A stretch of 37,067 nt of DNA from Gammaproteobacteria bacterium. Lineage in GTDB: Bacteria; Pseudomonadota; Gammaproteobacteria; Arenicellales; UBA868. Where the stretch lies: NCBI GenBank assembly GCA_011523045.1, contig WTHR01000213.1, forward strand, positions 1 through 37,067. The letters are read 5' to 3'. The notes under the pieces are model-generated. The model was not told the origin of the DNA. It did no database searches and worked only from the letters and a program-made list of their open reading frames with translations. The position numbers and the translations under genes are program-made. Below are positions 19,382 through 37,067 of this stretch, piece after piece; position 1 is the stretch's first letter, and every line of letters begins with the position of its first letter.

Positions 19382-20164
19382 ATGACGTATCCGGATATCG
19401 ACCCCATCGCAATCAGTATCGGCCCGATTGCGATCCACTGGTACGGCCTGATGTATCTCGTCGCATTTGCGGCGGGTGGTCTGCTCGGCAGATACCGGGC
19501 TCGTCGAATGCCGGGGCAATGGACGAACACGCAGATCTGGGATCTCGTTTTCTATATCGCCGTCGGTGCGGTGCTTGGCGGTCGGCTCGGTTATGCGATC
19601 TTTTACAACACAGGCTATTACCTTTCACATCCTATCGAGATTTTCTGGGTATGGACGGGGGGCATGTCTTTTCATGGAGGCCTGATCGGGGTCGTCCTCG
19701 CTGTCGGACTTTTTGCGCGTCGATCACAGCGACGCTTTTTTGAGGTGGCTGATTTTCTTGCGCCACTTTGTGCGCCGGGTCTTCTGGCAGGTCGAATCGG
19801 CAACTTCATTAATCAGGAGTTGTGGGGGCGGGTCAGTGATGTTCCCTGGGCGATGGTGTTTCCTGCGGGTGGGCCGCTGCCGAGACACCCGTCCCAGTTA
19901 TATGAAGCAACTCTAGAAGGTGTCATTCTTTTCGTTATTGTCTGGAGTTTTGCGGCGAAACCGAGGCGGCCCGGTCAGGTAAGCGGTCTCTTCCTGCTGG
20001 GTTATGGCGTCTTCCGATTCTTTGTGGAGTTCTATCGTGAGCCGGATGTCCATCTTGGTCCGGTGGCGCTTGATTGGGTGACGATGGGTCAACTCCTGAG
20101 CGTCCCGGTAATCGTGGCAGGGGCGTGGTTGCTGATGCGACGACCGCATAAAGGAAGCCATTAA
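19382..20164 (+). CDS. lgt: Prolipoprotein diacylglyceryl transferase
   Basis: Lgt attaches diacylglycerol from phosphatidylglycerol to the lipobox cysteine of prelipoproteins, the first step of lipoprotein maturation in the inner membrane. The protein has 260 residues, slightly shorter than E. coli Lgt (291). Seven membrane segments are likely. The SFHGGLIG motif (H98) and the signature GRIGNFINQELWGR (R138, N141) are present. So are HPSQLYE and, near the C-terminus, FRFFVEFYREPD, which includes the essential arginine. The usual GRxxNFIN signature has A or G in the variable place; here it is G. It is followed by the phosphoesterase gene with a one-base overlap. Confidence 0.95.
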   Translation: MTYPDIDPIAISIGPIAIHWYGLMYLVAFAAGGLLGRYRARRMPGQWTNTQIWDLVFYIAVGAVLGGRLGYAIFYNTGYYLSHPIEIFWVWTGGMSFHGGLIGVVLAVGLFARRSQRRFFEVADFLAPLCAPGLLAGRIGNFINQELWGRVSDVPWAMVFPAGGPLPRHPSQLYEATLEGVILFVIVWSFAAKPRRPGQVSGLFLLGYGVFRFFVEFYREPDVHLGPVALDWVTMGQLLSVPVIVAGAWLLMRRPHKGSH

Positions 20165-20697
20165 TGCGGGTGTTGCTGTTGTCGGATACGCACGGCTTTG
20201 TAGAGCCTTTTGTCCAGACACTGGCACGTTCGGCTGACTGTGTCGTGCACGCCGGAGATATCGGTGGGTTGGAAGTGATCGAGGCGGTGACGCCGGTTCG
20301 GGGCAAATTGGTCGCGGTGCGGGGAAACAACGACTGGCCTGAATCCTGGCCGGGCGCAGCGAAAGCGGGCGTTCTGGATCTGGGAGAGTCTGCCGAGGTG
20401 GATCTTCCCGGAGGCCTATTGGCAGTTGAGCATGGTCACCGTATCTGGGATACCCGTCACTACCATAAGCGCCTTCGAGCAAAATATCCTAAGGCCCGCG
20501 CGATTGTCTACGGACACACCCATATCCGCTGTGCAGATCTGGATCAGGCGCCGTGGGTGTTGAACCCCGGGGCTGCAGGCCGTGAGCGCACCAAAGGCGG
20601 CGCTTCCTGCATCCTGCTCGAAGCAGGCCGCCATAAATGGAAAGTGAGTGAGTATCGAAACGGGGAGATCAGCGCGTCTGATTGCCACCGTGCTTAA
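20164..20697 (+). CDS. YfcE/MJ0936-type metallophosphoesterase
   Basis: The protein has 177 residues with the two-metal calcineurin-like phosphoesterase fold. The metal ligands read in order DTH (D8, H10), GD (G31, D32), GNND (N55 or N56, D57), a later histidine in VEHGHRIW, and GHTH. The short length and simple core put it in the YfcE/MJ0936 group, phosphodiesterases of broad, poorly defined substrate range. The start codon overlaps the lgt stop by one base (TAATG), so it is translationally coupled to lgt. The coupling does not suggest an obvious shared task. The substrate is unknown. Confidence 0.88.
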   Translation: MRVLLLSDTHGFVEPFVQTLARSADCVVHAGDIGGLEVIEAVTPVRGKLVAVRGNNDWPESWPGAAKAGVLDLGESAEVDLPGGLLAVEHGHRIWDTRHYHKRLRAKYPKARAIVYGHTHIRCADLDQAPWVLNPGAAGRERTKGGASCILLEAGRHKWKVSEYRNGEISASDCHRA

Positions 20698-20748: not shown

Positions 20749-21522
20749 TCAGTCGTCTTGTTTGATGAGAAATTCTCGAACGATAGGCAAGACGCGTTCA
20801 GTCGCCTCGATAAAGATAGCGTGTTTGAGGTGATCCAGGATAACGAGTTCGGCGTTGGGCAGGGCGTCTGCCATTTCCCGATTGAGTCGGGGGTTGCAGC
20901 CGCCGTCTTGCGCACCAGTGACCAGTTGGCAGGGCACCGATATCTCATGAAGCCATGGCGCCATCTCGGTTTGGGCATAGATATCGAAGACATTCAGGAA
21001 GACATCGGCCGGGGTATCGATGACCTGCTGTTTCCGTTTCTCAATGAGATCAGGCCGTTCGGCGATAAATTCATCCGTGAACCAACGCGCAGACAGGGTA
21101 TCGAGCACTTGTGAAATGCCTTTTTCCCGCATCGCGCTGACGACTGCATTGACCTTGGCACTGTCGTCGGGCGTTCGAAAGGCCGCGGTAGACCATAATC
21201 CCAGGGAAAGGACCCGCTCGGGATAGCGCTTCGCGTAGGCCGGGCCGATCATGCCCCCCAGCGAGTGGCCTGCGAAGTGCGCGTATTCAACACCGAGGGC
21301 CGATCGCAGGGCCTCCAGGTCGTCGACCAGATCGTGCAGGCTGAACGGAGTGTCTGGAGTGGGACTTTCGCCATGACCGCGAAGATCGTAACGGATACAG
21401 GTGAAGCGGTCCTTTAATCCTTCAACAAGCTCAGCAAAAGTTGCCCGCCGGGCGCCGATCCCGTGGATCAGGAAGAGCGCTGGACCTTGACCTTCTATGG
21501 TGTAGGCGCAGTCAATCGTCAT
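20749..21522 (-). CDS. Alpha/beta-fold hydrolase (enol-lactonase-like)
   Basis: The protein has 257 residues. The catalytic triad is complete: S87 in GHSLGG, D206 in the TGAQDGG loop, and H234 in LKHAIF. The oxyanion HG is in LFLIHGIGA. The lid is short, as in 3-oxoadipate enol-lactonase and related esterases or C-C hydrolases. No signal peptide is seen, so it is cytoplasmic. It starts 23 bases after the stop of the luciferase-like monooxygenase gene on the same strand, which implies an operon: the monooxygenase would make an ester or lactone that this enzyme opens. The substrate is unknown; esterase or lactonase is the family-level call. Confidence 0.85.
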   Translation of the reverse strand: MTIDCAYTIEGQGPALFLIHGIGARRATFAELVEGLKDRFTCIRYDLRGHGESPTPDTPFSLHDLVDDLEALRSALGVEYAHFAGHSLGGMIGPAYAKRYPERVLSLGLWSTAAFRTPDDSAKVNAVVSAMREKGISQVLDTLSARWFTDEFIAERPDLIEKRKQQVIDTPADVFLNVFDIYAQTEMAPWLHEISVPCQLVTGAQDGGCNPRLNREMADALPNAELVILDHLKHAIFIEATERVLPIVREFLIKQDD

Positions 21523-21545
21523 GATTCAGTCCAGTCGTCGGTAGA

Positions 21546-22574
21546 TCATGCAACGTCACGGCTGAGCGAGCGAACGTGCGGCACGACCTCTTCACTGAAC
21601 CGGCCCATCATGTCCAGGGTCTCAGACTGATCCTGGCCAAAGTTGGACGATGCAATCACCTCACTGATGCCCAGTTCGGCATATTCTGAAAGGCGGTCAA
21701 TCATTTCCTGGACGCCGCAAATAAGAACATTTGCTCCGAGTTCCTCAATAGACTGGGTTCGGGGCAGGGGTTTGATGATCCCCTCCTTGACGATTCCCGG
21801 ACCTCCAAAGACATTATCAAAGCTCTGGTAGTAACGGTAGGCGAGGGCGGTCTTGTTTCGGGTATCCGCATCATCTTTGGTGAGATAAAGCCCCCGCTGA
21901 AGCGACAGGCGAGAATGGCAGTGTGTGCCGGCTAAAGCTCTGCCCCTGAAGAATGCGCTGACCTGCTCTACGAGAACATCATGATTTGCGCCAAGCGGGG
22001 TAGTCTGGATGTGATAGCCCTTGGCTGCCATGGCTTCGATGCCGGCAGGCGCCATGATAGCAAGTGCAATGGGAATCGGGTGTTCAGGTCGCGGCATCAC
22101 GGTGAGGGGTTCGAAACGGTAATGCTCGCCATCCCAGGAAACCTCTTTTTCCAAGAGAAGGGCCTCGAGCACCTGAAGACTTTCCTCAAACTTGGGCTTG
22201 GTGGCATCGAAAGCCACTCCCATGCGTTCTGTTTCGTATTCGAAAGCGCCTTTGCCCACACCTAAAACCAGTCGGCCGTCGCACAGCGTCTGGGCTTGAA
22301 TCACTTCGCCGGCAAAGATCCGCATGTCGCGCAACGGCAGCTGGCAGACTGACGTCGCGATCTCGATTCTCTCTGTATGGGCTGCGACCTTGACCGCAAA
22401 CTGCAGCGGCGAGGGCATCAGGAGAATATTGACGAGGTGGTGCTCGGGGATGGAGACCCCCTGATAGCCGCAGGATTCAGCGTGCACAGCCTGTTCCAGC
22501 ATCTCACGGTAGAGCCGTTTCGCGCCAATGCCAGGGTCGAGCAGATGACTGTTTAAAAAGTGCGAGAACTCCAT
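21546..22574 (-). CDS. LLM-class flavin-dependent monooxygenase (luciferase-like)
   Basis: The protein has 342 residues with the (beta-alpha)8 bacterial-luciferase fold. It opens with the strand MEFSHFLN and has the conserved SIPEHHLVNIL block early in the barrel, and a GRLVLGVGKGAFEYE segment that binds the flavin. These enzymes use reduced FMN (some use F420) from a partner reductase to insert oxygen into aldehydes, sulfonates, amines or terpenes. No reductase gene is adjacent. It is first in a two-gene unit with the alpha/beta hydrolase and is divergent from phzF-like. The substrate class is undetermined. Confidence 0.87.
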   Translation of the reverse strand: MEFSHFLNSHLLDPGIGAKRLYREMLEQAVHAESCGYQGVSIPEHHLVNILLMPSPLQFAVKVAAHTERIEIATSVCQLPLRDMRIFAGEVIQAQTLCDGRLVLGVGKGAFEYETERMGVAFDATKPKFEESLQVLEALLLEKEVSWDGEHYRFEPLTVMPRPEHPIPIALAIMAPAGIEAMAAKGYHIQTTPLGANHDVLVEQVSAFFRGRALAGTHCHSRLSLQRGLYLTKDDADTRNKTALAYRYYQSFDNVFGGPGIVKEGIIKPLPRTQSIEELGANVLICGVQEMIDRLSEYAELGISEVIASSNFGQDQSETLDMMGRFSEEVVPHVRSLSRDVA

Positions 22575-22808
22575 ACCGTAAAAAGACGCGCCAAAAGACG
22601 CATCTTACACGAGGGTGAAGACGCATGACCCTTAACGGCGCTCCTGTCGGGCATAAGGCGTTTCAAGTTACTCGTTATCTTTACGAGAGCAGCTTGATAG
22701 GAAACTCGTTCCCCCTTTTTCGAGCGTAAGGCGTATGATCGATTGGTTTTGAGAAATAGGTCTCGATACATCGAAAAATATTGATTTGATTTCATTCAAG
22801 GATTCGGT
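22575..22808. promoter_or_regulatory. Divergent intergenic region with short direct repeats
   Basis: This 234-base region separates the two halves of the catabolic cluster. It contains AAGACGC three times (22583-22589, 22595-22601, 22618-22624), the last two extended to AAGACGCAT. TAAGGCGT occurs twice (22654-22661 and 22727-22734). Such repeats may be operators of a shared regulator. No regulator gene is adjacent and I could not place a convincing promoter. Confidence 0.3.
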
Positions 22809-23594
22809 ATGAAGCAGGATGTTTTTTGGGTCGATGCGTTCAGCGCGGAGCCATTCGGTGGCAATCCGGCTGTGGTTTGTGTCGGAGCCGATGAGTTGTC
22901 AGATGCGCAGCTTCAGCATCTCGCAAATGAGTTCAACGTATCCGAGAGTGTTTTTATCTCAGGTGATAAGGGTGAATATTCCATCCGCTGGTTTACGCCG
23001 ACCAAAGAGCTCCCGCTGGTGGGTCATGCGACGCTTGCAGCAGCTCATGTGGTGTTCTCTTCACTCGAGCCTGATCGATCTGAGGCGCGTTTTTTTTCAG
23101 CCATGAGCGGGGAGTTGGCCGCGTTTAAGGATCAGAGAAATATTGCGATCGTTTTGCCCGCGGATGACCCTGTGAGCTGTGATCCGCCGGATGCCCTGAT
23201 TCGCGGACTCGGGTTGATGCCGGCTGCGACCCTGAAGGGTCGTCACTATATTGCGGTATTGGGTCATCCTGATGAGGTAGCCTCAGTCGAGCCGGACCTT
23301 GACGCGTTGCAGACCTTGGATCTTCCGACAATCGCGGTCACGGCAGCTGGTGGGGATTCAGACTACGTCCTGCGTTTTTTTGCCCCGGCTAACGGTGTCC
23401 CGGAAGATCCGGTCTCGGGAGTGGCCCAGTGCTCACTGATGCCGTATTGGGCGTCAAAGCTTGGAAAAACGGAATTGGGCTCAAGACAGCTTTCCTCAAA
23501 AGGTGGTGAGATGCACTGCAAGTTACTCGATGCCGGCGTGCAGATCGCTGGTCCTTGTTGCACGATTTTTTCCGGCTCCCTTGAAAACTGTTGA
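22809..23594 (+). CDS. PhzF-family isomerase/epimerase-like protein
   Basis: The protein has 261 residues with the PhzF fold (two diaminopimelate-epimerase-like halves). PhzF isomerises trans-2,3-dihydro-3-hydroxyanthranilate. Most bacterial relatives act on unknown small molecules as isomerases. Family marks are the N-terminal VDAFSAEPFGGNPA, a VSESVFI stretch with the catalytic glutamate at E46, LVGHATLA, and the second-half GVPEDPVSG. Some residues vary: the usual EDPxTGSA is EDPVSGVA here, which suggests a divergent substrate pocket. The ATG has AAGGA six bases upstream. No other phenazine genes are nearby, so it is not part of phenazine synthesis; the cluster context suggests a catabolic isomerisation. 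Confidence 0.85.
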   Translation: MKQDVFWVDAFSAEPFGGNPAVVCVGADELSDAQLQHLANEFNVSESVFISGDKGEYSIRWFTPTKELPLVGHATLAAAHVVFSSLEPDRSEARFFSAMSGELAAFKDQRNIAIVLPADDPVSCDPPDALIRGLGLMPAATLKGRHYIAVLGHPDEVASVEPDLDALQTLDLPTIAVTAAGGDSDYVLRFFAPANGVPEDPVSGVAQCSLMPYWASKLGKTELGSRQLSSKGGEMHCKLLDAGVQIAGPCCTIFSGSLENC

Positions 23595-23802
23595 ACTTGA
23601 TTAAGGGCTGAATGGGGCTGGAAGATCTGCGACAGCGGTTTCCTTTTTTACTCCACCCTGACAAGTGTGCGCTTGCGAAGTAATATCTCTCATCTTTTTA
23701 TGAGCCCCTCGGGGACATCCAACAGGGTTTCGGAGGCCTTGCTGGGAATGTCATGCCGTATCGGGTGGCCATACTGTAATCTCAACCGCGAGGAGGAAGC
23801 GA
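23595..23802. other. Intergenic leader before the amidinotransferase gene
   Basis: The region holds no recognisable gene. Its last bases carry a near-perfect ribosome binding site (AGGAGG at 23791-23796, six bases before the ATG). A CCCC-TC-GGGG hairpin at 23705-23714 has no T tract, so it is not a terminator. A promoter for the downstream pair is likely here, but none is clear. Confidence 0.3.
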
Positions 23803-24792
23803 ATGAGTCAAACTGAAGGATTCGGTGCCTATACCGATTTCGGCAAACTGCGTACCGCGATCGTCGGCAGCGCTGAGGGGCTTTCCCTGCCGCCGTTCAA
23901 TCCAACACTGCACCACTACAATGATGAAGTTCAGGCCGCGCTAAAGGCAAGCGGTGACCAGCCGCTTGATATCGCCAAGGCAATGCCGGAGCGCTGGGAA
24001 AAAACGGCAGAGCAGTTGGATAGCCTTGCGGCGCTCTACGAAGCCAATGGTGTCAAGGTCCATCGTCCGAGACCTTACAGTGAGGAAGAGCGGCTGTACC
24101 TTGCTGAGGCACAGCCCGGGGCTTCCCTGCTTTATCCTGCCGATCCGGTCTATACCGTCGGCAAGCATTATCTGGAAGTGAATATCCGAAGAGCCTATCG
24201 GCGGAAAGAGGTTTTCCCGTTGCGGGAGATCGTTGCGCCCCTTATCGCGTCGGATCCCGAAGCCCATCATGTGATCATGCCGGCCGTGCAGCCTTTCGCT
24301 CCGTCCAGTGGCGGGCCGGGGCCCTATCTTGAGGGCGGTGACATCATCTGCTATCAGAATCACCTGTTCGTGGGAGAGTCTGACATCGCCACGAACCGTG
24401 CGGGAACAGATTGGTTTGCGGACTACATCGAGCCCTTCGGTTACCAGGTACACCCGATGCCGATGCATGGCACCATCCTGCATCTTCTCGGCACAATGGT
24501 GTTGGTGGCCGAAGGGGTATTGCTGCTGTATCGGGATGAATTAAAGGAGTCGCTGCCGGCACCGCTGGCAGACTGGGATGTCATTGACTTGACCGAGGAA
24601 GAAGCCAGAGCCTACGCCACCGTTGGCGTCAGTCTGGATGAAAAGCGCTACATCATCCCTGCCGGGATGGGTCGAGTGTGTGATGAACTCGCCAAACGCG
24701 GTGTCGAGCCCATCGAAATTGCCTACGATCACGTCAGTTACTGGGGTGGCTGCGTTTCCTGCTCAACCCATGCAATCCTGCGGGATCCCTAA
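23803..24792 (+). CDS. Amidinotransferase-fold enzyme (guanidino-group modifying superfamily)
   Basis: This is a 329-residue cytoplasmic enzyme of the guanidine-group-modifying superfamily (arginine:glycine amidinotransferase, StrB-type, arginine deiminase, DDAH). The fold's triad is visible: D180 in the EGGD motif, a histidine in the GTILHLLGT stretch (H227 by alignment, with H222 nearby), and a C-terminal cysteine in YWGGCVSCST (C320 by position, C317 also present). The opening GKLRTAIVGSAE matches the typical first strand of amidinotransferases. The length is near StrB (about 350) and shorter than mitochondrial AGAT. Whether it transfers, hydrolyses or deiminates is not decided by sequence alone. 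It is followed after three bases by the M20 deacylase, which makes them one operon. Confidence 0.8.
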   Translation: MSQTEGFGAYTDFGKLRTAIVGSAEGLSLPPFNPTLHHYNDEVQAALKASGDQPLDIAKAMPERWEKTAEQLDSLAALYEANGVKVHRPRPYSEEERLYLAEAQPGASLLYPADPVYTVGKHYLEVNIRRAYRRKEVFPLREIVAPLIASDPEAHHVIMPAVQPFAPSSGGPGPYLEGGDIICYQNHLFVGESDIATNRAGTDWFADYIEPFGYQVHPMPMHGTILHLLGTMVLVAEGVLLLYRDELKESLPAPLADWDVIDLTEEEARAYATVGVSLDEKRYIIPAGMGRVCDELAKRGVEPIEIAYDHVSYWGGCVSCSTHAILRDP

Positions 24793-24795
24793 AAC

Positions 24796-26118
24796 ATGAG
24801 CCCGCCTGAGATAGACCTGGCGCCGGAGTTAATCGGACAGGTGCTGGATGCGGTGGACAAGGGATTTGAGCGACAACTGGCGTTTACCCAGCAGATGATG
24901 TCGCTCGACTCGACCCGTGGCAATGAGCATCAGGCTCAGGCATGTTTTTACGAAGCGCTTGAATCACGCGGCTTTGAGATGGATCAATGGTCCATTGATA
25001 TTGCCGAGATAGAAGACCACCCCGGGTTCTCGCCTGTCAAAGTCGACTATGACAACGCGGTGAACGTGGTCGGAACCCATACGCCGGTCGAGACCAAGGG
25101 CCGCTCCCTGATCCTGAATGGACACGTGGATGTCGTGCCCACGGGGCCGGTGGATATGTGGACCCGCCCGCCGTTTGAACCCTGGATCGAGGGAGATTGG
25201 CTGTATGGCCGCGGCGGCGCAGACATGAAGGCAGGCCTTTGCGCCAATCTCGCAGCACTGGATGCGCTCAAGACCCTGGGTTGGCAACCCGCCGCTCGCG
25301 TGCATGTGCAGTCGGTTACCGAAGAAGAGTGCACTGGTAATGGCGCACTGTCTGCATTGGTGAGAGGTTATCGGGCGGATGCGGCACTGATTCCAGAGCC
25401 AGAGGAGAACATGCTGGTGCGGGCCAATACTGGTGTGATCTGGTTTCGGGTTCATGTGCGCGGCAGGCCGGTTCATGTCCGTGAGGCAGGTCAGGGGACA
25501 AATGCCATTGAAGCCGCGGTATCCATTATCCCGGCGTTGAAAAAGCTCGAGCGCGAATGGAACGATGCTCGCTCGAAGCATCGCTATTTTGAATCGCTGG
25601 AGCACCCGATCAATTTCAATATCGGCAAGATCGTTGGTGGCGACTGGGCCTCTTCCGTCCCGTCATGGTGTACGTTCGATATGCGTGTGGCGATTTATCC
25701 CGGCGTGGATCCTCGTGATGCTGCCAAGGAGATTGAATCGTGTATCGGGGCGCATGCTGATGAGCATCCTTTCTTGCGCAACAATCCGCCTGAGGTGGAG
25801 TACAACGGATTCTTTGCCCGCGGCTATGTGCTGGAGGAAGGCAGCGACGCTGAGATGGTGTTGGGCCAGGCCCACGCGGCAAGCTTCGGAGCCAGTCTTG
25901 AATCTTTTGTGACTCCGGGATATCTCGATGGCCGGGTGTTCGTGCTTTATGACGACTGTCCTTGCCTCGTGTATGGTCCGGTCTCGCGGGACATCCATGC
26001 CTTTGATGAAAGGGTGAGTCTTGCCTCTTTAAAGCGAGTCACCGGAACGATTGCGCTTTTTGTCGCTTCCTGGTGCGGCCTGGAACCCGCTACTCCTCGG
26101 GATCGTCCCCACGCTTGA
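24796..26118 (+). CDS. M20-family metallopeptidase/deacylase (ArgE/DapE type)
   Basis: The protein has 440 residues. M20 enzymes use two zinc ions to hydrolyse amide bonds, deacylating amino acids or small amides. Visible ligands are H110 in the NGHVDVVP motif, with D112 as the catalytic aspartate. D143 in GADMKAG is the bridging ligand, and the E176-E177 pair in TEEECTGNG holds the general base. The dimerisation domain is central (about 220-330). The ArgE/DapE grouping is family-level; specificity cannot be read out. It is coupled to the amidinotransferase gene, so a substrate that carries both an acyl amide and a guanidino or amidino group is plausible. The 3' end overlaps convergent dinB by 29 bases. 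Confidence 0.87.
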   Translation: MSPPEIDLAPELIGQVLDAVDKGFERQLAFTQQMMSLDSTRGNEHQAQACFYEALESRGFEMDQWSIDIAEIEDHPGFSPVKVDYDNAVNVVGTHTPVETKGRSLILNGHVDVVPTGPVDMWTRPPFEPWIEGDWLYGRGGADMKAGLCANLAALDALKTLGWQPAARVHVQSVTEEECTGNGALSALVRGYRADAALIPEPEENMLVRANTGVIWFRVHVRGRPVHVREAGQGTNAIEAAVSIIPALKKLEREWNDARSKHRYFESLEHPINFNIGKIVGGDWASSVPSWCTFDMRVAIYPGVDPRDAAKEIESCIGAHADEHPFLRNNPPEVEYNGFFARGYVLEEGSDAEMVLGQAHAASFGASLESFVTPGYLDGRVFVLYDDCPCLVYGPVSRDIHAFDERVSLASLKRVTGTIALFVASWCGLEPATPRDRPHA

Positions 26119-27340
26119 CCTGCATAGAAAGACCGACCTGCTCACGAGTGGTACGCGGCAGTTCGCCGATCGCTTTTCTTCCAAAACGCCTGGTGATTTC
26201 GTCTAGGGTCTGATTGAGGGTGTTCCGCCTGGCTTTCTTTTCAGCACCAAAAAGCGGCAGTTGGTCGACAGACTCCGCGGTCAGCCCGGTGCAGCCTACC
26301 CCAAGCAGGCGAATCGCTTCTTTTGGTCCGGATCGATATAGAAGCTGTGTTGCCTGTCTGGCAATTTCGTGACCGTCATCAGTCGGTTGCGGCAGCGTTA
26401 CCCGGCGGGTAAACACCGGATATCCTCGAACACCGGGCCCCGTTCTTCTGGCAGATTTGAATTTCAGGACAACGGTATGTGCGCGTACCTGGTCGTGTCT
26501 AAGGCGTCGGGCGACAGATTCCGCGTGCTCGCGAATCAGTGGTTCGAGTTCCCGATAATCAGAAATGTCTTTGCTGAAAGTGTGCTCCTCGCTGTAGGAG
26601 ACGGCTTCACGATAAGGCTCTACCTCGCGAACATCGTCGCCGCGCGCCAAGCGCGCAATCTCGATCCCCCATTCGCCAAGCAGGTCACGCAGAGTGCCAT
26701 CATCGGCCTTGGCGACATCCCCGATCGTCTCAAACCCCAGCGTTTCCAGTTTTTCTTTCGCAACGGGCCCCACACCCCAGATCCGGCTGACAGGGAGCGG
26801 CTCGAGAAAGCCCTGGACTTCGCCCGCCTTAACTTCAAGCAGGCCGTCAGGTTTCGCTCCTGCACTCGCAATCTTGGCCACCATCTTGACTGGCGCAATC
26901 CCGACTGAGACGGGAAGCGACAAGACTTTTCGGATCCTGCTGCGAAGGGCTTCTCCCACTTCTTGTGGAGGACCCATAAGCCGGGTACTGCCGGTCAGGT
27001 CGATAAAAGCTTCATCCAGTGATACGCGCTCTACGACGGGCGAAAAGTCCCTGAAAATCTTGAAAATGCGGGTGGACTCTTTCTTGTAGAGCGCCATGTT
27101 GCCCCGGACAAACACCAGATCCGGACAGCGTCGACGCGCCTCGACAGACGGCATGGCCGAGCGCACACCAAACTGTCTTGCCTCGTAGCTTGCAGCCGCC
27201 ACTACGCCGCGTGGACCGCTGCCGCCGACCGCTACGGGGCGGCCTCTGAGTTCCGGGTGATCACGCTGCTCCACGGACGCATAAAAAGCATCCATGTCGG
27301 CATGCATGATGACTCGAGGAGGATCGTTAGAGGCAGTCAT
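26090..27340 (-). CDS. dinB: DNA polymerase IV (translesion)
   Basis: This is a Y-family polymerase of 416 residues that bypasses bulky or alkylated lesions. The palm carries HADMDAFYASVEQR (D15) and SLDEAFIDLTG with the metal-binding acidic pair. The thumb has the IWGVGPVAKEKL helix-hairpin-helix, and the little-finger domain includes YSEEHTFSKDI. It is longer than E. coli DinB (351). The tail contains VDQLPLFG, which resembles a clamp-binding peptide (QLPLF), although it is not at the extreme C-terminus; about 45 residues follow it. The preferred start is ATG at 27340; a TTG one codon upstream also reads. No LexA box was recognised between 27341 and 27383. Confidence 0.94.
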   Translation of the reverse strand: MTASNDPPRVIMHADMDAFYASVEQRDHPELRGRPVAVGGSGPRGVVAAASYEARQFGVRSAMPSVEARRRCPDLVFVRGNMALYKKESTRIFKIFRDFSPVVERVSLDEAFIDLTGSTRLMGPPQEVGEALRSRIRKVLSLPVSVGIAPVKMVAKIASAGAKPDGLLEVKAGEVQGFLEPLPVSRIWGVGPVAKEKLETLGFETIGDVAKADDGTLRDLLGEWGIEIARLARGDDVREVEPYREAVSYSEEHTFSKDISDYRELEPLIREHAESVARRLRHDQVRAHTVVLKFKSARRTGPGVRGYPVFTRRVTLPQPTDDGHEIARQATQLLYRSGPKEAIRLLGVGCTGLTAESVDQLPLFGAEKKARRNTLNQTLDEITRRFGRKAIGELPRTTREQVGLSMQVKRGDDPEE

Positions 27341-27383
27341 CAACAGCGAATCTTACAGTCTATTCTGCTGTGTCGGTGAGCGC

Positions 27384-30122
27384 TTAGCCGGTATTGCGCA
27401 GTCCCGCAGCAATTCCGTTGATGGAAAGCAGTAATGCCCGCTGCATCTGATCATTGCGGTCGCGGCTTTTTTCTCGTCGGCTGCGGGTAAGCAATTCCAC
27501 CTGCAGCACGCTAATGGGGTCAAGATACGCATCCCGCACTTCGAGCGTACGACGCAACATCGGCTTGTCGGACAACAGTTCAGTTTCTGTAATTGAGGTG
27601 ATCATCTCCATCGTGAGCGAGTGCTCCTCAACAACCTGATCGAATAAATGATGCAGCTTGGGATCAACCAGCCGTTCAACATAGTGACGTGCGATGGCGA
27701 GATCAGTTTTGGCGAGTGTCATTTCGACGTTTGATACGAACGTTGAGAAGAAGTGCCATTCAGCATACATGCGGCGCAGGTCTTCCCCGTGCCCGGCTTC
27801 CATCGCAGCACGCAGACCGGTACCGGCGCCGAACCATCCAGGAATAATCTGACGTGACTGGGTCCAGCCGAATACCCAGGGAATGGCACGCAGGTCGGCG
27901 ATACCGGCCTTCGCTGCGGACCGGCGCGCGGGCCGGGATCCGATATTCATGGATCCGAGTTCCTCAACCGGTGTCGAGGTGGTGAAGTACTCCGGCAGCC
28001 CCGGGGTTTCGACAAACTGCCGATAGGCCCGGAAGGCGGCACTGGAAACCTGCTCCATGATTTCATACCAGGCCGTGATGGACATCTTGTCATGCCGCGG
28101 CGCTTTGTGGGCGAGGGAGCTTTCCAGGAGGGCGCTGATCGCAAGATTCAGGTTGCGCCGCGCAATAGCGGGCAGGCCGTATTTATCGGCGATCACCTCA
28201 CCTTGCTCTGTCAGTTTAATCTCTCCATCGACGACGCCGGGAGGTTGGCTGAGAATGGAAGCATGGGTCGGGCCGCCCCCACGGCCGATGGTTCCGCCGC
28301 GGCCATGGAATACGCGGATCCGGACGCCGGCCTCCTCGGCGACTTCCTGAATCACCCGAAGTGCTTTGTGAATTTCCCACTGCGACGTGGTGATGCCCCC
28401 GTCCTTATTGGAGTCGGAGTAGCCGACCATGACTTCCTGCTCGTCACCGCGAAGGGTCAGTAGGTGGCGATATGAGGTATTCCTGAAGAGTGTGCGAAGC
28501 GTGGGCCCGATCGATTCCAGATCCTCAATCGTTTCAAAAAGGGGAACAAAATCCAGACGGGCAACATCCTGCCCGAGATCGACCAGGCCGACTTCACGCG
28601 CCAGCAGCACGGGCGCAAGAATATCGTCGACGCCCCGCGTCATGGAGACGATATAGGCATCGATTACCTCGTCGCCATCTCGATCCATGATCGATCGGAG
28701 CGTCCGAAAGAGCGTAAGGTTGTCATGCTCGTTATGACCCTGGGGCGGTGCCAACGGACGACGGCTGTCGAGCTCTTCGACCAGCCGATCCAGCCGTTGC
28801 TCTGGGGTCATGTCCCCATACGCAACGCCCAGCGGCTCAAAGAGCGCGGCCAGTGCCTCATGATGGCGCGCCGAGTGCTCGCGGATATCGAGGCTGGCAA
28901 AATGAAAACCGATCGCACTGACAATCCGCCGAACCCGGGCAAGACGGCCGTCTGCGATCAATGCGCCTCCGTGACTGCGTAAGGAACGATCCATGGCCGC
29001 AAGTTCACTCATTAGTTGATCTGGTGAAGCGTACGCCTCGGCACCGCGGTCTCGCGTTGCCAGGAGACGCTTTTCGATAACGGCGCAGTGCAGTCGATAG
29101 GGTTCAAGCAGCCGGGCTGGCGTCAGCACATCGGAGTGCTCAGCTGTGTCTTGAGCAACCATCTGCTCCATTTCCTCGGAGACCTGATAAAGACGCCCGC
29201 TCATTGAGGCATCATCTGAGAGTTGCTTAATCTCACTGATCAGCAGGGCAATGGCGCGGTCACGCTGCAGGTCAAGCACAGCGACAGTGGTATCCGGGGA
29301 GACATTAGGGTTGCCGTCGCGGTCACCGCCGACCCACGAGCCAAATCGGATCGGAACATGATCCGGCCGCATCTTCTCGCCAATATCTCCCAGGGTCGCT
29401 GCGATCGTGTCAAAAAGATCCGGCAGAGCTTCGCTAACGGTCTGAGAAAGGTAATAAAGGACAAATTTGGCCTCGTCAAAAGGGTCAGGTCTTTCGTGGC
29501 GAATCTCGTCGGTTTGCCAGATGGCCTCGATCATCTCATCAATGCGCCGGTCGATACGCTCGCGTTCAATCTGCGTACAGCGCACATCCCCCCGCGCTTT
29601 TAGGAGGTCGGCGATAGTGGCAAGTTTGTTGAGGATGGACCGCCTTGAGGCTTCCGTCGGATGGGCGGTAAAGACGGGTCGGAAATCTGACCGGTTAACC
29701 AGATCCCCGATCTCGGGCGCTGTGACACCGGAATCAAGGAGACTCCGGACGGTCTGACCGAAGTGATTGCCCGCCCGGCTACCGCCCACGTTGAGATCTT
29801 CGATACGATGTTCCTGCTCGGCGATATTGGCGAGATGAAAATAGACGGTAAAGGCCCGCACCAGATGAATGGCGCGGTCACCGTCCAGGCCGGCCAGGAG
29901 GTCTGTGAGTTCGGCGGTAACGCCGGTCGGGCCACCCGTCTGACGAAGCCTTTGGGCAAGGTGGCGTACTTCCTCAACAGTATCGAGAAGCGCCTGGCCG
30001 TGTTGACGGACGAGGGTGTCTCCTAACTGATGTCCCAGACGCCGAATATCGGCCCGCAGTGCCGCATCGGCCGTCTCGGCCCGCGCGGGAATGGACTCCT
30101 TGGGATGGATGGTGCTTTTCAT
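27384..30122 (-). CDS. ppc: Phosphoenolpyruvate carboxylase
   Basis: PEPC carboxylates PEP with bicarbonate to oxaloacetate. The protein has 912 residues from the ATG at 30122 (E. coli 883). All catalytic blocks are present: FTAHPTEASRRS with H154, GYSDSNKDGG, the glycine-rich FHGRGGTIGRGGGP loop, and a C-terminal GLRNTG typical of the family. An upstream extension to 30182 is not conserved in the family. It is divergent from mcl-mtkA-mtkB, a grouping I recall from serine-cycle methylotrophs, where ppc sits with mtkA, mtkB and mclA. In that cycle it supplies the oxaloacetate that becomes malate and then malyl-CoA. An ordinary anaplerotic role is also possible. Confidence 0.97.
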   Translation of the reverse strand: MKSTIHPKESIPARAETADAALRADIRRLGHQLGDTLVRQHGQALLDTVEEVRHLAQRLRQTGGPTGVTAELTDLLAGLDGDRAIHLVRAFTVYFHLANIAEQEHRIEDLNVGGSRAGNHFGQTVRSLLDSGVTAPEIGDLVNRSDFRPVFTAHPTEASRRSILNKLATIADLLKARGDVRCTQIERERIDRRIDEMIEAIWQTDEIRHERPDPFDEAKFVLYYLSQTVSEALPDLFDTIAATLGDIGEKMRPDHVPIRFGSWVGGDRDGNPNVSPDTTVAVLDLQRDRAIALLISEIKQLSDDASMSGRLYQVSEEMEQMVAQDTAEHSDVLTPARLLEPYRLHCAVIEKRLLATRDRGAEAYASPDQLMSELAAMDRSLRSHGGALIADGRLARVRRIVSAIGFHFASLDIREHSARHHEALAALFEPLGVAYGDMTPEQRLDRLVEELDSRRPLAPPQGHNEHDNLTLFRTLRSIMDRDGDEVIDAYIVSMTRGVDDILAPVLLAREVGLVDLGQDVARLDFVPLFETIEDLESIGPTLRTLFRNTSYRHLLTLRGDEQEVMVGYSDSNKDGGITTSQWEIHKALRVIQEVAEEAGVRIRVFHGRGGTIGRGGGPTHASILSQPPGVVDGEIKLTEQGEVIADKYGLPAIARRNLNLAISALLESSLAHKAPRHDKMSITAWYEIMEQVSSAAFRAYRQFVETPGLPEYFTTSTPVEELGSMNIGSRPARRSAAKAGIADLRAIPWVFGWTQSRQIIPGWFGAGTGLRAAMEAGHGEDLRRMYAEWHFFSTFVSNVEMTLAKTDLAIARHYVERLVDPKLHHLFDQVVEEHSLTMEMITSITETELLSDKPMLRRTLEVRDAYLDPISVLQVELLTRSRREKSRDRNDQMQRALLLSINGIAAGLRNTG

Positions 30123-30182
30123 GGGCGCGACAGTACGGTCATTTCCTCGCCGAGACAAGAAAAAATTTGAGCATGCCCTCAA

Positions 30183-30470
30183 ATTGGTTTCGAGTGGGAA
30201 AAACGACCTCCGTATCCAATTTTGCCTTGATATCCAGAGGCGAGTGGCTGTCGTTGCCCAATTGCCATAAGTCTTTCTTGATAAGGCTAATCAGTAATCG
30301 CACTCATTTTTGGACTGAAGTCGCCGTATCCTTCCGGCCGCAAAATGAACCCGATGCTCTGATCGATCAGGCGCGTTGTGGTTTTGGTGGGGGTTTTGGC
30401 ACGCAGATGTGTTCGTCCCCCTCGATCACCGATTCCTGACTCCACAAACCGATTAACCAAAGAGAAGACC
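30183..30470. promoter_or_regulatory. Divergent ppc/mcl control region
   Basis: This region separates ppc from mcl and must carry both promoters. I could not place a confident -35/-10 pair on either strand. A perfect 12-base palindrome, CTGATCGATCAG, at 30359-30370 lies about 100 bases before the mcl ATG and could be an operator, though such palindromes also arise by chance. An in-frame extension of mcl to 30378 would cross this region and has no family match. Confidence 0.35.
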
Positions 30471-31418
30471 ATGAGTCACACCCGTACCCCAGAGCGCACC
30501 CGTCGATTGCAACGCAGCGAGTTGGCAGTGCCCGGCTCAAACCCCAATATGTTTGAAAAAGCCGCGGCGAGTAATGTTGATTACGTGTTTCTCGATCTTG
30601 AAGATGCGGTTGCTCCTGATGACAAGCTGGCTGCCCGGGCCAACATTATCCAGGCCCTCAGAGACATCGACTGGCGTGGCGCCGGCAAGACCATTTCCAT
30701 CCGTATCAACGGCCTCGATACCCACTATATGTACCGAGATGTTGTTGAGATCGTAGAGCAGGCGGGCGAGTTTCTGGACACCATCCTGATTCCGAAAGTC
30801 GGTGTCCCGAGTGATGTGTATATGGTGGACGCCATGCTCTCCCAGATTGAGACCGCGGTAGGCATCAATCACCGGATTGGTCTCGAAGCGTTGATTGAAA
30901 CGACGCTCGGCATGGCGAATGTCGAAGCGATTGCGATGGCCAGTGATCGTTTGGAAGCCATGCACTTTGGCGTAGCGGACTATGCCGCCAGCTGCCGGGC
31001 TCGTACGACAAACATCGGCGGTCTCAATCCGGATTACCCGGGCGACCAATGGCACGACGGTCTCTCGCGGATGCTGGTCGCCTGCCGGGCTTATGGTCTT
31101 CGGCCTGTCGACGGGCCTTTTGGAGATTTCAATGATCCAGAAGGGTTTCAACTGGCTGCACGCCGTGCGGCGGCGTTGGGCTATGAAGGCAAGTGGGCTA
31201 TCCACCCGTCCCAGATTGACTTGGCAAATGGTGTTTTCTCGCCGCCAGCGTCAGAGGTAGACAGAGCAAAGCGCATTCTTGTCGCCCTTGAGGAAGCCGC
31301 TGCGCAGGGTAAGGGTGCGGCCCAGCTGGATGGTCGGATGATCGACGCGGCATCAGCGCGCATGGCCGAGAACGTGGTTGCGATGGATGATGCGATTCAG
31401 TCAAAGGCCAGTAGTTGA
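30471..31418 (+). CDS. mcl: L-malyl-CoA lyase (HpcH/HpaI aldolase family)
   Basis: Malyl-CoA lyase splits L-malyl-CoA into glyoxylate and acetyl-CoA, and can run in reverse. The protein has 315 residues. Family marks are the HRSELAVPGSNP-like opening (here QRSELAVPGSNP), VFLDLEDAVAPDDK, SIRINGLDTHYMYRDVV with R78, and LIETTLGMANVEAIAM with E143. FGVADYAAS carries D170, and EGKWAIHPSQIDLAN is near the C-terminus. The strong match to methylotroph and Rhodobacter-type Mcl, rather than citrate lyase beta chain, is from memory of the family. Compared with those it lacks about 15 residues after IGGLNPDY. AGAGAAG precedes the ATG at 30471. It is the first gene of the mcl-mtkA-mtkB unit. Confidence 0.93.
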   Translation: MSHTRTPERTRRLQRSELAVPGSNPNMFEKAAASNVDYVFLDLEDAVAPDDKLAARANIIQALRDIDWRGAGKTISIRINGLDTHYMYRDVVEIVEQAGEFLDTILIPKVGVPSDVYMVDAMLSQIETAVGINHRIGLEALIETTLGMANVEAIAMASDRLEAMHFGVADYAASCRARTTNIGGLNPDYPGDQWHDGLSRMLVACRAYGLRPVDGPFGDFNDPEGFQLAARRAAALGYEGKWAIHPSQIDLANGVFSPPASEVDRAKRILVALEEAAAQGKGAAQLDGRMIDAASARMAENVVAMDDAIQSKASS

Positions 31419-31492
31419 TGAGGGGTCGGGGAACTGACGTGATTCTGTTCAACGGGCGGCACGCATAACACTTTACCGAGGAGGGGACGACG

Positions 31493-32668
31493 ATGGATAT
31501 CCACGAGTACCAGGCCAAGGCGCTGCTCGCTGATTTTGGGGTGCCGATACCGCCAGGCGGCCTCGCCTACAGTCCGGAGCAGGCGCAGTATCGGGCTTCA
31601 GAGATTGGCGGTGAGCAATGGGTGATCAAAGCGCAGGTCCATACCGGAGGCCGGGGCAAGGCGGGAGGCATCCGTTTATGCCAGAGCGAGCAGGAGGTCT
31701 GGACCGCAGCTGACGAAATGTTGGGCAGCCGATTGGTGACCAACCAGACAGGTCCCAGAGGCCGCGGCGTGTATCGTCTTTATGTTGAATCCGTGGCGGA
31801 TATCGAGCGCGAGATTTATCTTGGTTTTGTACTGGACCGGGCGACAGAACGGGTGATGTTGGTAGCGTCCGCGGCAGGTGGAATGGAGATCGAGCAGATC
31901 GCAGAAGAAGATCCGGAGTCGATGATTCGGGTTGTGATTGAGCCGGCGGTGGGTCTTCAGGCTTTCCAGGCCCGTGAGGTTGCCTTTGCACTCGGATTGG
32001 ATGCGTCTCTGGTGACCGAGGCGGCCAATACCTTAAGAGCCTGTTACCGGTCTTTCCGCGATCTTGACGCCACGATGGTCGAGATCAATCCCTTGGTGGT
32101 CACGGCTGACGGGCGCATCCTTGCGCTTGATGCCAAGATGACATTTGATGACAACGCACTTTTCAAGCATCAACGCATATCTGAGTTGCGGGATAAATCT
32201 CAGGAAGACCCCCGTGAGATGAGGGCCACCGATCGGGGGCTCAGTTACGTGGGATTGGAAGGCGATATTGGCTGCATCATTAATGGCGCCGGCTTGGCGA
32301 TGGCGACCATGGATATGATCAAGCACTCGGGTGGCGAACCAGCAAACTTCCTTGATATCGGGGGTGGCGCATCACCTGAACGGGTCGCCAAGGCATTCAA
32401 CCTGGTGCTTTCGGATGACAATGTCAAAGGTGTGCTGGTGAATATCTTTGCCGGAATCAACCGCTGCGACTGGGTCGCCCAGGGCGTGGTCAAGGCGATG
32501 CAGGATCTGGATATTCAGGTGCCGGTCGTGGTGCGACTCTCGGGAACCAACGTAGAAGAAGGTCGGCGGATTCTTGAAGAGAGTTCAGTGTCTCTGATCA
32601 CCGCTGACACGCTGGCCGAAGCGGCTGAAAAATCGGTCGCGGCTGTACATAAGGGGGTGAGCGCATGA
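31493..32668 (+). CDS. mtkA: Malate-CoA ligase (malate thiokinase) subunit beta
   Basis: This is a 391-residue ATP-grasp subunit related to SucC. With MtkB it makes L-malyl-CoA from malate, ATP and CoA. The [20 protein letters not shown] opening, [17 protein letters not shown] loop, [16 protein letters not shown], and [15 protein letters not shown] and [10 protein letters not shown] blocks are shared with succinate-CoA ligase. Malate specificity is inferred. The best arguments are the mcl gene just upstream (75 bases) and the MtkB partner, which resembles known MtkB rather than SucD; a sucCD pair would normally sit next to sucAB. GAGGGG lies upstream of the ATG. The stop overlaps the mtkB start. 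Confidence 0.88.
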
Positions 32669-33555
32669 GCATCGTTATTGATAGCGGGACTCCAGTCCTC
32701 GTGCAGGGTTTCACAGGGCGGATCGGATCATTCCATAGCGAGGAAATGATCGAGTACGGTACCAACATCGTTGGCGGAGTGACGCCCGGCCGGGGCGGCA
32801 CGACCCATCAGGGTCGGCCGGTATTCGATACCGTTAAGGATGCAGTATCGGCGACCGGAGCCGAGGCGAGCATCGTGTTTGTTCCGCCGCCTTTCGCGGC
32901 TGATGCGATTATGGAGGCGGCTGACGGAGGTCTGCGTGCCTGCGTCTGCATCACAGACGGCATTCCCGCCCAGGACATGATGCGGGTCAAGCGCTATATG
33001 CGGCGCTACAAGTCCGACAAGCGAATGCAATTGATTGGCCCAAACTGCGCAGGGGTGATCAGCCCCGGCAAAGCCCTGCTTGGCATTATGCCGGGTCATA
33101 TCTATCAGGAGGGTGAGGTAGGCATCATCGGCCGGTCTGGTACGTTGGGTTACGAGGCAGCATCTCAACTTAAAGCCGAGGGGATCGGCGTTTCAACCAG
33201 CGTCGGTATTGGGGGTGACCCGATCAATGGGAGTTCTTTCAAGGATCACCTGGCGGCTTTCGAAAAGGATCCGCAAACTCGCGTGGTGGTGATGATCGGT
33301 GAGATCGGGGGTCCTCAAGAGGCAGAAGCCGCCCAGTTTGCCCGTGATCACATGAGCAAGCCCGTAGTGGGATATATCGCCGGCCTGACAGCACCCAAAG
33401 GCCGAACCATGGGTCACGCTGGCGCCATTGTTTCGGCGGCTGGAGAGTCCGCTGAGGAAAAGGTGGAAATCCTGCGCCAGTGCGGGGTCACGGTGGTAGA
33501 ACGCCCGTCCGAGTTTGGATCTACTGTGAGAAAGGTGTTGGCGACGATCTCCTGA
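32665..33555 (+). CDS. mtkB: Malate-CoA ligase (malate thiokinase) subunit alpha
   Basis: The protein has 296 residues and is the CoA-binding and phosphohistidine subunit. The CoA-binding domain is at the N-terminus ([18 protein letters not shown]), with [38 protein letters not shown] follows, and then [14 protein letters not shown]. The catalytic histidine is H251 in [10 protein letters not shown]. The RVKRYMRRY stretch is a feature I associate with MtkB, while the SucD equivalent differs. The start ATG overlaps the mtkA stop as ATGA, so the subunits are translationally coupled in a 1:1 ratio. It is last in the unit, followed 11 bases later by the stop of a convergent gene. Succinate-CoA ligase is the alternative. 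Confidence 0.88.
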
Positions 33556-34660: not shown

Positions 34661-36190
34661 TTACGCGCTCAAGGAGGCGCCCCCGGCCTGGGTGCGTTGC
34701 TCGATGAAGGCGTCGATCTCCTCGAGAAGCGACTGATCCAGCGGCGGGGGCGTAAAGTCTGCCAACGCGGCTCTTGCAATGCGATTGGCCCGCCGAGTGG
34801 CATCCACCGAGCCATTCTCGGTCCAGGTTTCAAAGTTCGACCAGTCTGAGAGCAGCGGGGCATAAAACGCGGTTTCGTACCGAGCAAGCGTATGCTGGGT
34901 GCCAAAAAAGTGTCCACCAGGTTCGATCTCATCAAAAGCGGATGCAGCCAGCGTGTCTTCGTCACAGATGACGGGCTGCATCAGGCTTGCAAACATCTGC
35001 AGCATTTCAACGTCGATAACAAATTTTTCCAAAGAAGCGGTCAGGCCGCCTTCCAGCCAACCAGCGCCGTGCAGGAGAATATTGCACCCGCCCATGATGG
35101 CGCCCCAGCAGGACATCTGTGATTCATAAGCAGACTGCGCATCAGGTGCGTTGGACGCGTTAACGTTCGAGGTCCGATAGGGAAGGCGGTATCGGCGGGC
35201 AAGTTGACCCGAAGCAAAAGCTGCCTTGACATACTCAGGGGTACCAAATGCCGGCGCCCCGGTTTTCATATCAACATTGCTTGTGAACCCGCCGTACACC
35301 ACTGGGGCGCCGGGTTGGACGATTTGCGCCAGGGCAATACCGGCCAGGGCTTCGGCGTTCTGCTGTGCCAGCGCACCGGGAAGCGTGACCGGCGCCATGG
35401 CACCCGCCAGGGTAAATGGTGTCAGGATCATCGCTTGGCGCGCTTTCGCGAAGTCAATAATCCCCGCACACATCAGCTCATCGAGCTGCAGCGGCGAGTT
35501 GGCGTTCACCACCGTGTAACAGTGCACTTTTGATTCAAAGGTCTGACGGTCCATGCCGTAAGCCATCCTGAGAATCTCAAGAGAATCTGCGACCGCTTCG
35601 CGGCCGCGGGAGTAGATGAAGGTCGGCTTATCGGTCAGGGTGACTACCGACCGGGTCATGTGGAGATGACGGACGTTCGTTGGCAGATCCTGCGGCTCAA
35701 CCATCGGTGTCGTGAGATGGATCACGTCGTAGTTTTGCGCCATCCGCAAAAGGTCACGGAATGCGTCGTGTGTCCCCGCCCGTCGTCCGTTCTCAAGATC
35801 AGAGTAATGCGGTGGACCGCCCACAGTGGCGAAGACCAGATTGTTGTCACCAACCTCAAACCATCGGTTCGCAGAACGCCCGTGCATGGTAAACGTCGGC
35901 GGTGCAGGCATGACCGTCTGCAGCAGCAAGTCAGGGTCAAAGCGCACCATCAGCGTGTCTTCGCTAACGACGAAACCCGCGTCGCGGTAGTGCCCCCGGG
36001 CTTCTTCGCTCAGCACTTTGATGCCTTTATCACGCAGGAGATTGAGCGAGGCGAGGTGAATCGCCTCGATTTCGTCTTCGCTGAACTGGGCAATCGGCGG
36101 GTAGGGGTTCTTTATTCGTAGCCAGGAGTCGCCCGGTTGCGGCGCGGGCCGTGACTCACTGCGACGAGGTCGTTTGCGATTTCGCGCCAT
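34661..36190 (-). CDS. MttB-superfamily (trimethylamine methyltransferase-like) protein, non-pyrrolysine
   Basis: The protein has 509 residues. The family's TIM-barrel methyltransferases move a methyl group from a quaternary or tertiary amine to a corrinoid protein. The ORF has no in-frame TAG, so it is the non-pyrrolysine type, which includes glycine betaine, proline betaine and carnitine demethylases. Recognisable blocks are FATVGGPPHYSDLENGRRAGT, FAKARQAMILTPFTLAGAMAPVTLPGAL, and the SNAPDAQSAYESQMSCWGAIMGGCN region in the second half. It sits 42 bases after the stop of a dimethylglycine dehydrogenase-type gene on the same strand. No corrinoid protein or activase is in the window, which a classical MttB would need; it may be encoded elsewhere or the enzyme may work differently. 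Substrate unknown. Confidence 0.85.
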   Translation of the reverse strand: MARNRKRPRRSESRPAPQPGDSWLRIKNPYPPIAQFSEDEIEAIHLASLNLLRDKGIKVLSEEARGHYRDAGFVVSEDTLMVRFDPDLLLQTVMPAPPTFTMHGRSANRWFEVGDNNLVFATVGGPPHYSDLENGRRAGTHDAFRDLLRMAQNYDVIHLTTPMVEPQDLPTNVRHLHMTRSVVTLTDKPTFIYSRGREAVADSLEILRMAYGMDRQTFESKVHCYTVVNANSPLQLDELMCAGIIDFAKARQAMILTPFTLAGAMAPVTLPGALAQQNAEALAGIALAQIVQPGAPVVYGGFTSNVDMKTGAPAFGTPEYVKAAFASGQLARRYRLPYRTSNVNASNAPDAQSAYESQMSCWGAIMGGCNILLHGAGWLEGGLTASLEKFVIDVEMLQMFASLMQPVICDEDTLAASAFDEIEPGGHFFGTQHTLARYETAFYAPLLSDWSNFETWTENGSVDATRRANRIARAALADFTPPPLDQSLLEEIDAFIEQRTQAGGASLSA

Positions 36191-36232
36191 GAGAAGATCT
36201 AGTGATAGGGGTGATTTCTAAAGCGGAGCAGA

Positions 36233-37067
36233 TTACCCCCGCATTCTGGCACCTTGGGGGTCCCAGGCAGGTTCGGTCAGGGTGACCGCCCCGCGCCGTT
36301 TGCCAACGACATCCACCATCAGGGCGCCGTTGCTCTCATCAACGTCGGCATCGAGCAGGCCCATCGCGAGGCTCTTGGCAGTATGGTGCCCAAAGCCGCC
36401 CGACGTCACAAAACCCACCCGCTTGTCGTTCTGCCAGATCGGCTCATATCCCGAGGCATCGGCATCATCGGCATCAATCTCAAGGGTCACCAGCCGTTGC
36501 CCCACACTTCCTTCAGATCGTTCTTTGGCCGCTGCCTCATGACCGACAAAGTCATCGCGGGACCAGTCAATCCATCGATCCATCCCGGTCATGCCCGGAG
36601 TGCGATCCTGGGTGAATTCTGCGCTCCAGATGCCAAAACTCTTCTCCAGCCGCAATGCGTTCATGGCGTAGAACCCGAACTCTTTTATATCCTGACCGGC
36701 GCCGGCTTCCAGCAGGATGTCTCGCAGAGTGATGTGCTCAGCGGCACCGCAGTTGATTTCATAGCCAAGTTCCCCGCAAACCGAGAGTCGTGCGACTTTG
36801 GCACGAATCAGGCCCACGTCCATCGTCGCGCAACCCATGAAGGGCAGTTCTGTATCAACGTCCTGATGGGTCAGCGCGGAAAGCACTTCTCGGGATTTCG
36901 GACCTGCTATCCCAAAACCGACCATTGCGTCAGAGACATCCCGTACGTCGACCCCGTCACGGCGATGATCATCAAACCACCGCATGTGCCAACTGCGAAG
37001 GTAGTAAGACCCCATGATCCACCACCGGCCATCGCCCCAGTTGAACAGGGTGAGATCCCCTTTGAGA
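36233..37067 (-). CDS. FAD-dependent dehydrogenase with folate-binding GcvT domain, C-terminal part only (DMGDH/sarcosine dehydrogenase-like)
   Basis: The gene runs off the right edge, and the reading frame is open to 37066, so only the last 278 residues are visible. They form the aminomethyltransferase (GcvT) domain found at the C-terminus of dimethylglycine and sarcosine dehydrogenases. Marks are GFGIAGPKSREVLSALT, VARLSVCGELGYEI, ALRLEKSFGIWSAEFTQD, and RVGFVTSGGFGHHTAKSLAMGL. The whole enzymes are 800-860 residues: an N-terminal FAD domain oxidises the N-methyl group and the C-terminal domain passes it to tetrahydrofolate as methylene-THF. DMSP demethylase (DmdA) shares the fold, but the sequence pattern here fits the dehydrogenase. 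The ATG at 37015 is internal. It is upstream of, and probably co-transcribed with, the MttB-like gene. Confidence 0.85.
   Translation of the reverse strand, partial: LKGDLTLFNWGDGRWWIMGSYYLRSWHMRWFDDHRRDGVDVRDVSDAMVGFGIAGPKSREVLSALTHQDVDTELPFMGCATMDVGLIRAKVARLSVCGELGYEINCGAAEHITLRDILLEAGAGQDIKEFGFYAMNALRLEKSFGIWSAEFTQDRTPGMTGMDRWIDWSRDDFVGHEAAAKERSEGSVGQRLVTLEIDADDADASGYEPIWQNDKRVGFVTSGGFGHHTAKSLAMGLLDADVDESNGALMVDVVGKRRGAVTLTEPAWDPQGARMRG

Follow-up and report, generated by a model that had tools for sequence, protein, structure and literature searches.

The question raised by this locus is whether five adjoining genes, encoding an alpha/beta hydrolase (ABH), a luciferase-like oxidoreductase (LLM), a PhzF-family protein, an amidinotransferase-like protein (AmT), and an M20 deacylase, belong to one pathway, as an earlier note had proposed. 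The window (the whole stretch of 37,067 nucleotides analysed here) is contig C115 of a 2.7-Mb genome distributed over 250 contigs, whose relatives by similarity search are mostly marine MAGs labelled Acidiferrobacteraceae, Arenicellales, or Gammaproteobacteria.

Gene arrangement and the variable slot

All five genes are intact open reading frames, located where they had been reported and assigned by Pfam and NCBIfam to the families claimed for them, although AmT, the 'amidinotransferase', has no Pfam match (Table 1). AmT, M20, PhzF, and ABH show the active-site motifs expected of them. Two divergent units had been described, but the spacing of the genes reads better as three units: LLM-ABH, directed leftward with a gap of 23 bp; PhzF, alone and directed rightward; and AmT-M20, also directed rightward, with a gap of 3 bp and at a distance of 208 bp from PhzF.

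Table 1. Features of the locus and their positions in the window
Feature	Coordinates	Strand	Remarks
Metallophosphoesterase	20164-20697	+	Left border of the variable slot
ABH, alpha/beta hydrolase (enol-lactonase/esterase-like)	20749-21522	-	PF00561; partner of LLM
LLM, luciferase-like oxidoreductase	21546-22574	-	PF00296
Divergent intergenic region	22575-22808		Short imperfect repeats
PhzF-family protein (261 aa)	22809-23594	+	PF02567; variable neighbour outside the conserved pair
AmT	23803-24792	+	No Pfam family; weak NCBIfam dimethylargininase matches; core of the conserved pair
M20 ArgE/DapE-type deacylase (440 aa)	24796-26118	+	PRK06837 family (NF005306, 663 bits); partner of AmT
DNA polymerase IV (DinB)	26090-27343	-	Convergent; 3' end overlaps M20 by 29 bp

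The region between the divergent genes had also been considered repeat-bearing. It does hold one 15-nt imperfect direct repeat and short copies of AAAAGACGC, but these are poorly kept in the nearest relatives. Their candidacy as regulatory sites was rejected, since they are short, poorly kept in G016, and absent from G010 and G011. Promoter- and terminator-like sites in this region show no excess over shuffled sequences, and the pattern AAGACGC is not clearly above chance within the window. In G010, G014, and G009, the gap between LLM and PhzF holds a quinone-oxidoreductase-like gene and an M24 peptidase gene.

The distribution of the five genes was followed in 33 genomes of the window's family, most of which are incomplete MAGs. 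AmT is found with at least 73% identity in 26 of them (fragments counted) and M20 with at least 70% identity in 25, whereas PhzF appears in 7 (six times at the locus and once elsewhere, with 64% identity), and LLM and ABH, both with at least 80% identity, share an identical set of 8 genomes. The five genes stand together in the window, G010, G009, and G014, and G016 holds four of the five, with AmT truncated at the contig end. However, the slot of G015 (95% complete) holds LLM-ABH alone, PhzF being absent; G017 (93% complete) carries PhzF at another place and no close copy of LLM or ABH; and in six genomes of the same genus (G001, G003, G005, G006, G012, and G018) the metallophosphoesterase directly adjoins AmT, with no LLM, ABH, or PhzF between them. 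The slot of G002 contains an M24 peptidase gene and one gene of unknown type, and DinB forms the right border in the same-genus genomes. Genomes that carry LLM-ABH at the locus cluster together in the AmT tree, with modest support (91/88). Since the slot from lgt/metallophosphoesterase to AmT differs in content among genomes, the gene set of the window looks like the product of several gains and losses. A single pathway served by all five enzymes is highly improbable, as outside one small subclade the five genes are not found together, which is largely the outcome that the earlier note itself had named as counting against its proposal, and LLM-ABH is found in unrelated contexts. The five-gene cluster is a neighbourhood put together within one subclade, with PhzF and LLM-ABH as separate later neighbours in the variable slot.

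LLM-ABH is a module of its own, and its distant copies (47-55% identity for LLM and 53-64% for ABH) also adjoin each other. In L089 and L090, the module lies beside URC-like genes of the uracil route (GTP cyclohydrolase-like, DUF1688, and UPRTase), and in L092-L097 it is near polyamine and phosphonate genes (N-carbamoylputrescine amidase, PhnW, PhnA, and phosphonoacetaldehyde dehydrogenase). In these latter loci, which belong to sister species, the LLM homologue is placed in a large cluster that holds, together with the N-carbamoylputrescine amidase, HDAC-like, aminotransferase, M20, DUF1028, PhyH, and 2-aminoethylphosphonate genes. An assignment of the module as RutA/RutD was rejected: the RutD model gives 71.5 bits for ABH against a cut-off of 238.5, and no RutA model is present among the LLM matches listed. 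Regarding the cofactor, CofD is present in 14 of the 33 family genomes, among them G015, one of those with a close LLM; searches of the window's genome (G000) and of six of the seven other close-LLM genomes, which are incomplete MAGs, did not detect it. Because no CofD was found in most of these genomes, LLM is more likely to depend on FMN than on F420, and it probably works without F420. In G015, CofD and a CofG/CofH-like radical SAM protein are encoded near a second AmT copy (L032:539-3952).

Conservation of the AmT-M20 pair

In contrast with the variable slot, AmT-M20 (positions 23803-26118) is conserved and is probably the functional unit, and its two genes are likely to be co-transcribed. 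A genome search and a scan of genome contigs provided 29 loci encoding AmT (45-99% identity), 28 of which have an M20 neighbour on the same strand; neighbours in the high-GC loci (L074/L117) were judged by tblastn, and the M20 of L052 is in pieces. In G004 (L004, L052), the M20 frame that follows AmT immediately is broken up into pieces. The lone exception among the 29 is L067, in which AmT is found without M20 and with a carbamoylase-type gene upstream.

Several of the family's genera have the pair, as do Rhodospirillales MAGs and other Proteobacteria. Two Rhodospirillales MAGs encode AmT with 54-55% and M20 with 69-70% identity, and the pair also appears in a proteobacterium (60% for AmT) and in a gammaproteobacterium (51% for AmT). 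It stays joined while its flanks vary (TypA/MacB/HyuAB, carbamoylase, MTHFR, or DddP-like genes). In the branch with 46% AmT identity (L031 and L032), the partner belongs to another ArgE/DapE-type M20 subfamily and is placed upstream, which indicates that the association recurs with a different M20.

A branch with 100/100 support sets the M20-paired proteins apart in the AmT tree as a single clade, and none of the seven sister proteins (24-32% identity, from genomes of the class of L077) has a close M20 neighbour of this kind. The family is rare, since a class-wide search at E ≤ 1e-30 recovered AmT in one of 321 Gammaproteobacteria genomes, the window's own. A plasmid search returned just two distant matches (25-28% identity), and no described system or bacterial route matching the pair was found in open-access papers. 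The GME clade that contains AmT is undescribed. The earlier remark that the combination of amidinotransferase and M20 deacylase suggests a guanidino or acyl-amide substrate still stands, because AmT-M20 alone is conserved. A nearby transporter or regulator had been suggested as a further clue; none is common to all the AmT-M20 contexts.

Fold and active site of AmT and its partner

AmT is linked by phmmer to HsvA, SxtG, DDAH, and AGAT. Its AlphaFold model (built on 12 sequences, pLDDT 79.9) matches the folds of HsvA (Z 31.5), SxtG (31.0), and AGAT (30.5), and more weakly those of ADI (25.9), NnhA (25.6), and DDAH (24.2), the leading ones among the 50 matches listed being GME-fold enzymes, with Z from 31.5 to 16.5. 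According to this model, AmT has the GME alpha/beta-propeller fold, which places it in the GME superfamily.

The active-site residues of AmT are D114, E177 (in LEGGD), H227 (in LHLLG), and C320. They were compared in an alignment of 30 clade sequences (29 loci and the window), seven sisters (L110-L116), and two paralogues from the window's genome, one ADI-like (L118, G000:C220) and the other of the standard AGAT-like type (L119, G000:C102). All 30 clade sequences hold Y[PA]ADPV, LEGGD, LH[LAG]LG, and a Cys at the C320 position, with E177, H227, and C320 kept in GME order. The R-D Arg and the H-x-D Asp are changed in all 30 (to A-D and H-x-L), whereas both are kept in the sisters, in L118, and in AGAT-like proteins. 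The catalytic acid is Glu (EGGD) in the 30 sequences; in contrast, solved HsvA, SxtG, and AGAT align an Asp, and L119 has DAAD at this position. Glu-His-Cys is the hydrolase triad of ADI and DDAH (PMC11659421). In the phmmer alignment with bacterial DDAH, the H-x-D position corresponds to HLK, so the Asp is also missing there.

The active-site acid of AmT is thus of the hydrolase type, which makes 'amidinotransferase' doubtful as the name of a reaction; judged by these residues, AmT is probably a hydrolase with altered guanidinium recognition rather than a transferase. It resembles the AGAT group (human AGAT, HsvA, SxtG, and StrB1) in length, N-terminal part, and fold (Z ~31), and shares with it the positions of Cys and His, but differs in the Glu that replaces the catalytic Asp, in the lack of the H-x-D Asp and the R-D Arg, and in its pairing with M20. 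With DDAH it shares the Glu-His-Cys triad and the absence of Asp two residues past the His; however, DDAH has ~255 aa, the identity is ~20%, and AmT reaches 36.8 and 28.7 bits against the NCBIfam dimethylargininase models, whose cut-offs are 340 and 450, respectively. Arginine deiminase has the same LEGGD-H-C arrangement and GME fold, but ADI-like proteins hold the R-D and H-x-D motifs that AmT lacks. A protein that by similarity alone would be called an amidinotransferase or a dimethylargininase is probably neither.

By score, the M20 partner is a full member of the PRK06837 ArgE/DapE deacylases (solved relative 3pfo, a 'putative acetylornithine deacetylase'), with 663.5 bits against NF005306 (cut-off 376); it also exceeds the cut-off of TIGR01910, with 291 bits, and holds the metal and base motifs GHVD, GADMK, TEEE, and DIHAFD. 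The 25 families listed for this protein, out of 49, do not include TIGR01879 (hydantoinase/carbamoylase). What sets it apart from the ArgE/DapE family is that here it adjoins a GME enzyme.

Candidate reactions and substrates

The explanation that we consider fairly probable is that AmT and M20 form a two-gene hydrolytic operon, catalysing successive steps on one guanidino compound. AmT would be a GME cysteine hydrolase of the ADI/DDAH chemical type built on an amidinotransferase-like backbone. In this proposal, Cys320 would attack the guanidino carbon and the His227-Glu177 couple would activate water, with an amine or ammonia leaving to give a ureido product, after which M20 would cleave an amide in the same molecule, removing the carbamoyl group just formed or, alternatively, an N-acyl group. 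The pairing, the single clade, the fold class, the active-site residues, and the missing linkage to the other three genes are computed results; the order of these steps, the substrate, co-transcription, and the hydrolytic nature of AmT are inferred. Both enzymes probably act on the same molecule, of which adjacency alone is no proof, and the pair probably breaks down one nitrogen-rich compound in marine bacteria. Points that weigh against this explanation are the true amidinotransferases that AmT matches best in sequence and fold, the lack of a transporter or regulator common to all contexts, and L067, with its AmT unaccompanied by M20.

Two specific forms of this explanation differ in the group removed by M20. 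The first, which can be advanced tentatively, postulates an N-acylated arginine derivative or an N-acyl methylarginine, which AmT would convert into a citrulline-type compound and M20 would deacylate. It agrees with the ArgE/DapE type of M20, supported by the PRK06837 and TIGR01910 scores and found likewise in the 46% branch, and the DDAH-like loss of the H-x-D Asp would fit a substituted guanidinium. Nevertheless, none of the contexts surveyed shows genes for acyl-amino-acid uptake or arginine catabolism next to the pair.

The second form, somewhat less likely, is a deiminase followed by a decarbamoylase: AmT would turn a guanidino acid that may carry an N-methyl group (creatine and guanidinoacetate being examples) into an N-carbamoyl compound, and M20 would remove the carbamoyl group. 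An analogous layout is that of AguA (agmatine deiminase) and AguB (N-carbamoylputrescine amidase), a GME hydrolase acting before an amidohydrolase (PMC6447857), but AguB belongs to the nitrilase family, whereas the partner of AmT is an M20 metal enzyme. Several neighbours agree with this form. AmT is immediately preceded, on its own strand, by a hydantoinase/carbamoylase-family gene in L033 (TIGR01879, 430 bits, over the cut-off), L037, and L067, where this gene is the amidohydrolase adjoining AmT; four genomes (G022, G028, G029, and G032) have hydantoinase A/B-type genes facing AmT-M20; and MTHFR lies directly upstream, on the same strand, in L038, L039, and L042. These recurrent neighbours hint at ureido/N-methyl chemistry. 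However, the scores of M20 are those of an ArgE/DapE deacylase, the hydantoinase and C1 genes near the pair may be there by chance, if such genes are frequent in these genomes, and in the window no carbamoylase, hydantoinase, or C1 gene adjoins AmT-M20. As no recurrent neighbour is constant, every single substrate class must be held as unlikely, the best placed included. A DddP-like gene is found upstream of AmT in two loci.

The right part of the window holds further C1 genes. Positions 27384-33555 encode ppc, a citrate/malyl-CoA-lyase-like gene, and two malate/succinate-CoA ligase genes, a block that appears to be of the serine-cycle type, and positions 34661-37015, at the right end, encode an MttB-family methyltransferase and a GCV_T protein. 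The latter two can be read in favour of the decarbamoylase form, being consistent with demethylation of methylated amines and fitting C1 metabolism, but the C1 genes of the window are taken as background rather than as evidence for the function of AmT-M20.

A biosynthetic role, with AmT as a genuine amidinotransferase making a guanidino metabolite and M20 deprotecting or recycling it, is improbable. The closest folds and profile matches of AmT are HsvA, SxtG, AGAT, and StrB1, true amidinotransferases, so transfer keeps some plausibility. Against this role are the Glu in place of the catalytic Asp and the loss of both guanidinium-site residues throughout the clade; moreover, no NRPS/PKS or other biosynthetic genes were seen beside the pair, and the genome already has its standard AGAT-type paralogue.

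Returning to the conserved pair, AmT-M20 is a rare and conserved two-gene unit whose function is proposed here from sequence. Its small size, the lack of a Pfam family for AmT, the clear active-site signature, and the fixed partner make it a direct target for assays. Guanidino compounds are rich in nitrogen. It is conceivable, although still speculative, that the pair represents an undescribed guanidino catabolic route of marine Proteobacteria, composed of a new clade of GME hydrolases and a dedicated M20 amidohydrolase, and acting on an N-substituted, perhaps N-methylated, substrate. If so, the loss of two guanidinium-site residues would let AmT accept an N-substituted guanidino compound, and M20 would complete the release of nitrogen and of an amino acid for C1 metabolism.
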